DNA of 35,155 nucleotides from a virus. The notes beneath the pieces were generated by a model, which ran no database searches, was not told the origin of the DNA, and was given only the letters and a program-made list of their open reading frames with translations. The stretch covers positions 1-35,155 of IMG/VR virus record IMGVR_UViG_3300032236_000495. One strand, written 5' to 3'. The first letter of the stretch is position 1. The number at the start of each line of letters is the position of its first letter. The translations under genes and the position numbers were made by a program. Below are positions 13,634 through 18,735 of the stretch, piece after piece.

Positions 13634-13659
13634 TATAATGTAGGGTATTAATCGTACCC
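13634..13659 (+). promoter_or_regulatory. Lysozyme leader: -10 candidate and GGGTA/TACCC hairpin
   Basis: The 80-base gap before the lysozyme gene holds TATAAT at 13634-13639. TTGACG at 13617-13622 is only 11 bases upstream, too close for a normal -35, so the promoter is tentative. GGGTA at 13643-13647 and TACCC at 13655-13659 can pair as a 5-bp hairpin with a 7-base loop that ends directly at the ATG (13660). No Shine-Dalgarno is present. If transcription starts about seven bases after TATAAT, part of the hairpin would be missing from that RNA; transcripts from further upstream would include it. Confidence 0.45.
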
Positions 13660-14532: not shown

Positions 14533-14570
14533 AACCCATGTAACAAGTCAAGTCTATATCAAAACTTCCC

Positions 14571-15359
14571 ATGTCAACAATGAACTCAAGTACCTATACA
14601 AATTCGTTAGCAGTCGCCAGCGATGGCGATATTTATTCGAGGATGAATGATCCTCTGGTCGCCGTTGAAAAACTCGGCGAAATTATTGCAAGCTCTGGTA
14701 TGTTTGGATGCACTAAGATTGAGCAAGGCCAAGTGCTAGCTTTACAGTGCCTATCTGAGCGTAAACCGCCTTTAGAATTGGCTAAAACATACCATGTAAT
14801 TGATGGCAAGCTATCCATGCGTTCCGATGCTATGCTGGCCAAGTTTCAGCTTTCAGGTGGCAGCGTTAAATGGACTAGGCGCGACGATAAAGCAGTCGAG
14901 GCTACGTTCACCCTAAGAGGTAATTCTTTGGCTTTTACGGCCAAATTAGAGGACTTTGTGGCCAATGGCGTAGCAGTAACTCGTGATGGTAAACTGAAAG
15001 ACAATTGGCGCAAGTTTACACGTCAAATGCTTACTGCTCGCGTGGTCAGTGAAGCAGTTCGTCTATTAGCACCTGAAGTTGTATTCGGAGTATATACTCC
15101 TGAAGAAATCAGCGACTTTAATTCGCCTGCTCCAATTGTTGAAACAAAGCAGGTTGAAGTGCCAGTATTGGAAGTAGAATTTACCACTATACAAAAGCTC
15201 GAAGCATTACTTGAACCATATGAGGCTAAAGTAAATGCTTATCTATTATCCAAGGCGCAAATTAAGGAAGGCCAAAACTTTCGCGATGTTTCCGAAGAAT
15301 ACGCTAAGAAAATCTTAAGTAACTCAAACGCTTTTTTAGAAATCATTAACAAAAACTAA
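14571..15359 (+). CDS. RecT-like single-strand annealing protein
   Basis: A 262-residue protein. The core (GQVLALQCLSERKPPLELAK, then YHVIDGKLSMRSDAMLAKF, then WRKFTRQMLTARVVSEAVR and PEVVFGVYTPEEISDF) matches a phage group commonly annotated as RecT-family recombinases. RecT proteins bind and anneal complementary single strands. The partner exonuclease lies two genes downstream (15767), giving a RecT/RecE-type pair interrupted by a Dps-like gene. There is no Shine-Dalgarno; the start context is TCCC-ATG, with a second in-frame ATG at 14580. The C-terminal 60 residues are helical and variable-looking. Identification is by pattern memory, not alignment. Confidence 0.72.
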   Translation: MSTMNSSTYTNSLAVASDGDIYSRMNDPLVAVEKLGEIIASSGMFGCTKIEQGQVLALQCLSERKPPLELAKTYHVIDGKLSMRSDAMLAKFQLSGGSVKWTRRDDKAVEATFTLRGNSLAFTAKLEDFVANGVAVTRDGKLKDNWRKFTRQMLTARVVSEAVRLLAPEVVFGVYTPEEISDFNSPAPIVETKQVEVPVLEVEFTTIQKLEALLEPYEAKVNAYLLSKAQIKEGQNFRDVSEEYAKKILSNSNAFLEIINKN

Positions 15360-16588: not shown

Positions 16589-16993
16589 ATGTTCAAGATC
16601 GATAGAAAATCTGCCGAGGTTCGCTACTTTGAGAATCCCGGTCAATACACAGTTGAAATTGTCAAAGCTGAACCCGGCTTGACCGCAAAGGGCGACAACA
16701 TTGTCACTCTTTCTTTGAGGTCAGACGATGGTTGTTTAGCCACTGACAATTTCTTAAACAAGGAATCTGTTTATTGGCGCGTCAATGCGCTATTAGCAGC
16801 AGTTCCTGAAGTCACCATTCCCGAAGGTGCGGAATATGACTTTAGTAAACGACAAGTTTTTAATGATTTCTTTAACTTATTTATCGGCAAGAAAGTCGAT
16901 ATTAAGCTGGAGCCAGAAACCTATGTGAAGGATGGCGCAGAAAAGACAATCTTACGGGTTAAGAGATATTTAAAATCTAATAATCCGTTTTAA
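16589..16993 (+). CDS. Single-stranded DNA-binding-like protein (DUF669-type)
   Basis: A 134-residue beta-rich protein: PGQYTVEIVKAEPGLTAKGD, then LSLRSDDGCLATDNFL, an acidic mid-segment, then FNLFIGKKVDIKLEPETYV, ending KRYLKSNNPF. The pattern of a G-x-Y strand, a 'kGn/kGD' turn, a 'lIGK' strand and a final NPF resembles the DUF669-type OB-fold proteins found beside phage recombinases and helicases. That suggests an SSB-like role at replication forks or annealing intermediates. The leader (aaatataatattATG) is AT-rich with no Shine-Dalgarno. Family assignment is moderate. Confidence 0.6.
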   Translation: MFKIDRKSAEVRYFENPGQYTVEIVKAEPGLTAKGDNIVTLSLRSDDGCLATDNFLNKESVYWRVNALLAAVPEVTIPEGAEYDFSKRQVFNDFFNLFIGKKVDIKLEPETYVKDGAEKTILRVKRYLKSNNPF

Positions 16994-17005
16994 TGGTCGC
17001 ATAAA

Positions 17006-17053
17006 GGGTACAAGCAGGGGCGCGTCTGCTTAATAACGCGCAACCTACCCATG
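17006..17053 (+). promoter_or_regulatory. H-type pseudoknot in the helicase leader, closed at the start codon
   Basis: In the 57-base gap before the SF2 helicase, AAGCAG (17012-17017) pairs with CTGCTT (17026-17031), and GCGCGT (17020-17025) pairs with ACGCGC (17036-17041). The two 6-bp helices interleave, with loops of 2, 0 and 4 bases: a sterically reasonable H-type pseudoknot. GGGTA (17006-17010) can also pair with TACCC (17046-17050), enclosing it so that the outer helix ends exactly at ATG 17051. There is no Shine-Dalgarno. The arrangement suggests translational control (ligand, protein or autoregulation). Pairing is seen directly; function is inference. Confidence 0.6.
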
Positions 17054-18577
17054 CAACTTAGAAAATATCAACAGGACGCAATAAGTGCCATTTTAGACAA
17101 GTGGAAAACTTATAATAAGTTATTACTTGTTCAACCAACTGGTAGCGGTAAGACCATTGTATTCAGTCAGATTGCTAAAGCACGATTAGAACATGGAAGA
17201 ACGCTTATATTAGCGCACCGCGAGGAATTAATTAAACAGGCTCAGGATAAATTACAACGCACCACAGGCATCGTGGCCGACCGAGAGCAGGGCGAACATC
17301 ACGCAGGCAATGCACCGATTGTTATTGCGAGTATACAGACCATGCAGCGCAGACAGGATCAGTGGGCCAATAAATTTAGTACTGTAATTATTGATGAAGC
17401 GCATCACGTATTATCTGATTCTTATCAGCAAGTATTATCACGATTTGAAGGCGCAAAAATTTTAGGCGTTACTGCAACTCCTGATAGAGGCGACAAAAAG
17501 AATTTAGGAAGTTACTTTGACGAAGTTGCATTTGAAATTGGTTTATTAGATCTGATTAAAGAAAATCATTTAGCAAAGATCTTTGTAAAATCAGTTCCGC
17601 TTAATATTGATCTTTCAAATGTACGCACTACCGCAGGCGATTTTAATGAAGCAGATCTAGGCGAGGCACTTGAGCCTTATTTAGAAGCAGCAGCAGACTC
17701 AGTTACTAAGCACGCACAAGGCCGTAAGGTACTTGTATTTTTACCGCTTATTAAAACGAGTCAGACCTTTGCTAAGATGTGCAAAGATCGCGGTTGGAGA
17801 GCAGAACACGTAGACGGCAATTCGCCTGACCGCGTAAACATTCTTTCACGCTTCACTGGCGGTGAATGCAACCTGCTTTGCAATTCAATGTTATTAACTG
17901 AAGGATATGATGAGCCTTCCATTGATTGTTTGATGGTTTTAAGACCAACGCGCAGCCGTGCATTATATTCTCAAATGATCGGGCGTGGAACTAGAACGCA
18001 TGAAAGCAAGGATCATTTGCTCGTTATAGATCCGCTATGGCTAACAGGTAAACTTTCGCTGATTAAGCCTGCTCACTTAATTGCAGAGAGCGAAGAAGAA
18101 GCCCAGATAATGTCAGAAATGGCCAATGTACAAGAGGCTTTGGACTTGGAAGGTATGCAAGTAAACGCACAAAAGATCCGCGAGGAATCACTGCGTAAAA
18201 AGCTGGCACGCGAGGCAAGCATAGCAAAGTACCGTAGCAAGAATTTAATTGATCCAATATCCTACGCATTAGATCTGCACAACACTCAGCTTGCAGACTA
18301 TTCGGAGACGATGAAATGGCATTATCAGCCAGCTACTGAGGGTCAGCTTAAAGCACTCAAGTCATTTGGATTTGATTGCGATAAAGTTCGTAACCGTGGC
18401 CATGCATCCAAACTTCTGGATTTGCTTTTTACACGCAGCAATTCCAAGCTGGCCACTCCTAAGCAGATTAACTGGTTAAGAAAGATGGGTCATCCATCGC
18501 CTAACACCGCAACATTTACTGAGGCTAAAGACTATTTAGACAAAGTATTTAATAAGTGCATCCCCATAAAAGCATAA
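17051..18577 (+). CDS. Superfamily 2 DNA helicase (ResIII/DEAH type)
   Basis: A 508-residue helicase with Q-type start LRKYQQDAI, Walker A QPTGSGKT (28-35), AHREEL, DEAH (115-118) in VIIDEAHHV, motif III GVTATPDR (139-146) and C-terminal motif VI QMIGRGTRTH. The order matches SF2 helicases of the UvsW/RecG/type III-restriction-like group used in fork remodelling, branch migration or recombination. The last 150 residues carry a lysine-rich extension with repeated short helices (GQLKALKSFGFD, PKQINWLRKMG), probably accessory DNA-binding. The start is ACCC-ATG right behind a pseudoknot-capable leader. It sits between the ssDNA-binding-like gene and small DNA-binding genes. Confidence 0.88.
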   Translation: MQLRKYQQDAISAILDKWKTYNKLLLVQPTGSGKTIVFSQIAKARLEHGRTLILAHREELIKQAQDKLQRTTGIVADREQGEHHAGNAPIVIASIQTMQRRQDQWANKFSTVIIDEAHHVLSDSYQQVLSRFEGAKILGVTATPDRGDKKNLGSYFDEVAFEIGLLDLIKENHLAKIFVKSVPLNIDLSNVRTTAGDFNEADLGEALEPYLEAAADSVTKHAQGRKVLVFLPLIKTSQTFAKMCKDRGWRAEHVDGNSPDRVNILSRFTGGECNLLCNSMLLTEGYDEPSIDCLMVLRPTRSRALYSQMIGRGTRTHESKDHLLVIDPLWLTGKLSLIKPAHLIAESEEEAQIMSEMANVQEALDLEGMQVNAQKIREESLRKKLAREASIAKYRSKNLIDPISYALDLHNTQLADYSETMKWHYQPATEGQLKALKSFGFDCDKVRNRGHASKLLDLLFTRSNSKLATPKQINWLRKMGHPSPNTATFTEAKDYLDKVFNKCIPIKA

Positions 18578-18585
18578 ACAATTCC

Positions 18586-18735
18586 ATGAACCAAATGAAT
18601 AAAAACACCGCTAAATGCCCACATTGCGGTCACTCAATATTGCCGGGCGCGTTACTAGGCAGTATCAAAACTGAGCGTAAGGCTGCTGCTGCTCGTATTA
18701 ATGGACTCAAAGGAGGAAGGCCAAAAAAGAAATGA
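18586..18735 (+). CDS. Tiny zinc-ribbon-like protein with basic GGRPKKK tail
   Basis: A 49-residue protein. A CPHCGH motif (C11, C14) near the N-terminus could form half of a zinc ribbon; no second cysteine pair exists, so it may dimerise or not bind metal. The basic end RINGLKGGRPKKK is a motif common in small phage and plasmid DNA-associated proteins (AAR-x-NG-x-KGGRP). The start context is TTCC-ATG, with a second ATG three codons on, eight bases after the helicase stop. The stop overlaps the next start as ATGA, which supports real expression. Confidence 0.7.
   Translation: MNQMNKNTAKCPHCGHSILPGALLGSIKTERKAAAARINGLKGGRPKKK

Follow-up and report, generated by a model that had tools for sequence, protein, structure and literature searches.

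The leader pseudoknot of phage T4 gene 32 is of the H type, lies within the leader of a gene for a single-strand DNA binding protein (SSB), and is bound by that same SSB. The preQ1-I, SAM-II and guanidine-III riboswitches are also small H-type pseudoknots, and pseudoknot PK1 of tmRNA is compact, has an A-rich third loop and lies shortly 5′ of the codon where translation begins. A motif reportedly named ssNA-helicase in a 2017 survey was set against the element described here through Rfam scans only. Finally, STAXI (RF01728) is a pseudoknot found near SSB and other DNA-handling genes in mobile elements, whose authors (Weinberg 2010) left undecided whether it acts as RNA or as single-stranded DNA (PMC2864571).

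Here we describe an evolutionarily conserved and apparently undescribed class of phage RNA pseudoknots. Like the T4 gene 32 leader, the founding example is an H-type pseudoknot in a phage mRNA with an SSB gene nearby, but it follows the SSB stop codon, and most other copies have no SSB neighbour; where T4-type autoregulation has the pseudoknot in the leader of the binding protein's own gene, we find it before genes that fall into 71 different clusters. It resembles the three riboswitches in size and topology, but has no Rfam sequence match to them, no pathway theme and no conserved expression platform. With tmRNA PK1 it shares compactness, an A-rich third loop and a site upstream of the codon that starts translation; it sits, however, in mRNA gaps, and we do not claim homology. 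The likeness to STAXI lies in the pseudoknot and in the SSB and DNA-handling neighbours, whereas STAXI occurs in Enterobacteriales as two to three tandem units with UUCG-capped hairpins, and its sequence and architecture are unlike those of the phage element. We rejected STAXI as its identity: its model gave no match in the window phage at E ≤ 10, each stretch examined holds a single copy, and the consensus differs. STAXI was also sought in plasmids F, R100 and ColIb-P9, and none was found.

The initial annotation had recognised no known riboswitch class at this site, and the Rfam 15 search agrees, giving no family match. The window yielded no matches at gathering score, the element alone at E ≤ 10 gave just chance miRNA matches, and locus L096 and six other loci had no match at the element. 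Nor did the open-licence PMC literature hold a matching phage pseudoknot motif; since that search covered open-licence papers only, a description elsewhere is possible.

A pseudoknot in the SSB–helicase gap

The window is the whole 35,155-nt stretch of viral DNA that was analysed (IMG/VR record IMGVR_UViG_3300032236_000495). All features below are on its given (+) strand. An SSB gene (phrog_378, 16589..16993, ending NNPF and a stop codon) is followed after a 57-nt gap by a superfamily 2 DNA helicase gene (phrog_16, ResIII/Helicase_C, 17051..18577), whose start agrees with its homologues. Most of the gap is taken up by a pseudoknot of about 30 bases. Two interleaved helices had been proposed here, and all of their arms are present: S1 pairs AAGCAG (17012..17017) with CTGCTT (17026..17031), while S2 pairs GCGCG (17020..17024) with CGCGC (17037..17041), followed by a conserved A at 17042. 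The original S2 had six pairs, with loops of 2, 0 and 4. S1 holds as drawn, but comparison with other copies leaves S2 with five pairs, its sixth giving way to an unpaired junction base at 17025 (L2), so that the loops become 2, 1 and 5: L1 is GG (17018..17019) and L3 is AATAA (17032..17036). The junction accepts any base (A in 109, G in 27, T in 21 and C in 8 of 165 copies); it is T in the window.

A descriptor asking for S1 of at least six pairs, S2 of at least five and short loops found three distinct pseudoknots on the given strand of the window, against a mean of 0.27 per strand and a maximum of two in its dinucleotide shuffles. With pseudoknots forbidden, the minimum free energy competitor is a long bulged hairpin (z = −1.2), which likewise uses the GCGCG/CGCGC pairing. 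Because this nested fold competes, energy alone is indecisive for the window pseudoknot, and sequence comparison decides.

The nearest relative is viral contig G001 (L003; IMGVR 3300015368_000138), collinear with the window at about 80% nucleotide identity. The SSB–helicase gap is 92% identical between the two, against 55% at third codon positions of the helicase gene, and is thus under constraint. Five differences separate the gaps: G001 lacks one A ahead of GGGTA, carries T17025A and has three further changes within 17043–17047. T17025A removes the sixth S2 pair, while S1 and the other five S2 pairs, which form the core, are unchanged. A third helix, GGGTA (17006..17010) with TACCC (17046..17050), had been drawn as wrapping the pseudoknot and sealing the helicase ATG. 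Both arms are present in the window, but the second reads ATCCC in G001, which breaks two of the five pairs without compensation; the helix is not conserved, and we do not count it as part of the element. Across 100 copies, flanking complementarity is in weak excess, with 4 of 200 shuffles equally high.

The same two arms recur at 13643–13659, where a GGGTA-N7-TACCC hairpin abuts the ATG of ORF 13660. In G001 its stem is identical while most of its loop bases have changed, and it is possibly a separate start-codon hairpin or operator. A start-stop, ATG TAA (14538–14543), lies in a strongly conserved leader stretch of the RecT-like gene at 14571. Downstream of the helicase, an unlisted 49-residue ORF (18586–18735) encodes a CxxC motif and a C-terminal GGRPKKK; G001 has a homologous frame.

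Consensus and covariation

Collected copies follow the consensus S1-GG-GYGCG-N-S1′-(L3, ending AA)-CGCRC-A, which the window matches throughout: S1/S1′, GG, GYGCG, N and CGCRC, with AA before the last arm and A after it. S1 has four to six pairs in the class, S2 five. A covariation check across the copies found compensatory changes in both S1 and S2. The inner pairs of S1 swap with compensation (CAG/CTG, CGG/CCG, AAG/CTT, GAG/CTC), and its fourth pair occurs in all Watson-Crick forms (GC, CG, AT and TA). The second S2 pair was left open as Y..R, and among the matches listed it was C..G in 112 (a count that includes copies from earlier scans that demanded C..G), T..A in 47, T..G in one and C..A in none; among the matches listed for loci new to the Y..R scan only, the counts were 46, 46, one and zero. 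Crass-like relatives carry GCGCG/CGCGC or GTGCG/CGCAC at one shared site, and in phage EastView9101 one copy is altered in both helices.

Among 40 representatives, standard pairs fill 99.2% of pair cells, both-side changes number 35 cells against 8.8 in shuffles, and the covariation score is 0.275 (shuffles, 0.084; slid structures, 0.054 at most). All three measures exceed 500 of 500 shuffles and every slid structure. These counts ignore phylogeny, although the same changes recur in unrelated phages. Coding chance matches (L095, L204, L209, L231, L237) were excluded from the structural alignment (A3), and some may persist among the 165 descriptor matches. On this comparative evidence the pseudoknot is almost certainly real and under selection.

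The search patterns largely fixed the other four S2 pairs, whose constancy therefore does not count as independent evidence; likewise, L1 is GG in every copy, but GG was specified in the searches. A descriptor with S2 left free, run over the loci known at that stage, found S2 other than GYGCG at background level only. L3 differs in length among copies, yet ends in AA in 57 of 58, and A follows S2 in 50 of 58, at positions wholly or partly unspecified in the search. Covariance model R1 scores window positions 17011–17044 at 41.2 bits (E = 2e-8), the window being among the 40 sequences used to build the model; its best background score was 13.9 bits in 317 kb. By eye, an additional short hairpin, CCGAA/TTTGG or TCGAA/TTCGA, lies directly 5′ of the pseudoknot at four loci (L178, L181, L188, L190), and GC-rich hairpins lie 5′ of it at three others (L187, L195, L202).

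Distribution among phages

At least 165 distinct copies were found, in unrelated phages. A 20-base core pattern led to the same structure in a gene gap of the unrelated high-GC phage L096, before an exonuclease-like gene. With the pattern relaxed step by step, the tally of stretches in viral contigs rose to 17, to 62 and to more than 120. Annotated records, reached via similarity searches with short leaders, include Corynebacterium phages phi673, phi674, BFK20 and PSonyx, Mycobacterium phages LilMcDreamy, EastView9101, Vincenzo, Arib1 and Arbiter, Microbacterium phage Pumpernickel, the crAss-like phages cr50_1, cr55_1 and cr1_1, the Escherichia coli Phapecoctavirus phAPEC8, one Microviridae record, and the Corynebacterium plasmids pCGR1 and pCRULAC1; many uncultured phages also carry the element. 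Two more gene gaps of pCRULAC1 (L250), around 384 and 2790, contain GGGGCGCG and are pseudoknot-like but differently arranged. Just one of 388 Verrucomicrobiota genomes has the element, in a prophage (L254) where it follows a phage-type SSB gene, one gene before a helicase; given this rarity and phage-type setting, it is a phage rather than a bacterial element there. Whole-record searches found one to four copies per genome; phage lambda and plasmid F had none.

The Microviridae copy, and the many neighbours with roles in DNA metabolism (SSB, helicase, RecT, exonuclease, DNA polymerase), invite the idea that the element works as a folded ssDNA structure in replication or recombination, as suggested for STAXI. 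We consider this quite improbable, as the copies are confined to gene gaps in sense orientation to both neighbours, some lie 3–5 nt before tRNAs, and many neighbours are not DNA genes.

Placement at gene boundaries

Neighbouring starts and stops were called by a mechanical ORF rule. A sense start codon lies within 120 nt downstream in 146 of the 165 copies, at a median of 19 nt (65 on the opposite strand), and a sense stop lies upstream in 158, with a mode of 5–14 nt (94 on the opposite strand). Copies lie between genes and read in the sense direction. The 146 downstream proteins fall into the 71 clusters, whose products include helicase, RecT, DNA polymerase, exonuclease, an endonuclease VII-like protein and many unknown proteins. 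At five loci from different phages (Pumpernickel, three crAss-like phages and L234), the element instead stands 3–5 nt before a tRNA, and in phAPEC8 it follows a tRNA array. The tight spacing to the tRNA 5′ end (L374, L243, L256, L257, L234) may bear on how that end matures. What the copies share is a boundary in the transcript rather than a particular gene.

The initial annotation saw a translational switch at the helicase start codon. A switch specific to the helicase does not survive the comparison: the element precedes the 71 gene clusters and tRNAs, and a search of distant helicase relatives found it absent from them. The accompanying remark that the helicase start lacks a Shine-Dalgarno (SD) sequence is true but not distinctive, since 30 of 34 genes checked in the window phage have no SD-like 4-mer. 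One of the four that do, ORF 18732, owes its 4-mer to the small ORF at 18586–18735, whose overlap with the start of ORF 18732 accounts for the window's strongest SD-like site.

More generally, the element could promote, insulate or couple initiation at the next cistron, as a standby site, a stand-in for the SD helix, or through termination-reinitiation. The 146 sense starts at close range speak for this, as does the low G content (7.6%) of the 12 nt after the element; in the window no SD is present, 9 nt separate the end of S2 from the ATG, and a conserved three-codon minicistron overlaps the SSB stop. This minicistron (ATG GTC GCA TAA, 16992–17003, overlapping as TAATG) is kept in G001 and ends just before the element. 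But the distance between element and start codon is highly variable, copies also stand before tRNAs or after a tRNA array, about a quarter of the downstream starts (38 of 146) possess their own SD-like site, and the distant helicase relatives manage without the element. As the whole explanation, a translation element is possible but somewhat unlikely.

Regulation by a ligand fares worse. Here the pseudoknot would be an aptamer that binds a small ligand or a phage or host protein, such as the SSB encoded upstream, and so controls the downstream gene. S2, GG and the AA/A positions are highly conserved, and this near-fixation, though partly imposed by the search, could signal binding of a specific protein or ligand; an SSB gene is also the upstream neighbour in the window, G001, L189 and the Verrucomicrobia prophage. 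Yet the downstream clusters share no common pathway, most copies are not beside an SSB gene, and we found none in the SSB gene's own leader. The start codon may follow as little as 5 nt or more than 40 nt after the element, and an SD, where one exists, falls outside it, so there is no sign of a conserved expression platform: the SD is not sequestered, and terminator-like sites occur within 120 nt after just one of 156 copies. Such an aptamer would be improbable on these data.

That same terminator count bears on a cis-acting antitermination or pausing RNA that would, like HK022 put, act on RNA polymerase. Copies do lie in untranslated gaps, and terminator hairpins follow the element in L187 and phAPEC8, but with terminator-like sites so rare we regard this role as very unlikely. 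Least credible of all is a recoding signal that would make ribosomes read through the upstream stop or shift frame by −1. An H-type pseudoknot 5–14 nt past a stop could suit such a role, the window gap is in frame and open, and gap length is 2 modulo 3 in 44 of 95 non-redundant cases (the other classes holding 26 and 25, among copies that are not fully independent); against this, the 1-nt deletion in G001 shifts the frame, openness of the downstream frame across gaps is close to that of shuffled gaps (26 vs 22.8; 13 vs 11.5), and homologous helicases start at ATG.

Proposed role and significance

Sense orientation, gene-boundary sites, recurrence and covariation of both helices are features of the sequences themselves; what the element does must be put more tentatively, and no single function reaches even odds in our estimation. 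The readings as a ligand- or SSB-controlled switch, an ssDNA structure, a recoding signal or an antiterminator are disfavoured, each by the specific contrary evidence given above. Our leading suggestion, to which we give a probability of about 40%, is that the element is a self-contained mRNA pseudoknot that punctuates phage transcripts through RNA processing or stability. It would form where a polycistronic phage transcript passes untranslated from one gene to the next, folding immediately upon transcription and acting in cis regardless of the gene that follows. The folded knot could then stably block, or be recognised by, some host activity in RNA processing or decay that is widely conserved, and so define or protect the end of the downstream unit, whether cistron or tRNA; in the window that unit would begin with the helicase cistron, 9 nt past S2. 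As a side effect, the G-poor start region downstream would stay unpaired. That the next feature is a start codon in most copies fits translation models equally well, and a local role in insulating or assisting initiation is almost as probable as punctuation and compatible with it.

For annotators, the motif and its covariance model give content to gaps now labelled empty, and since the element occurs in phages of the laboratory hosts C. glutamicum, M. smegmatis and E. coli, direct functional testing is feasible. That a short, near-fixed pseudoknot recurs across unrelated phage lineages means that it probably engages a factor common to very different hosts. More specifically, though at below even odds, it may be a gene-boundary module in phages of at least four bacterial phyla, apparently including ssDNA phages, that engages a universal host machine, be it ribosome, RNA polymerase or RNase; it could, for example, be a bacterial counterpart of exoribonuclease-resistant RNAs.
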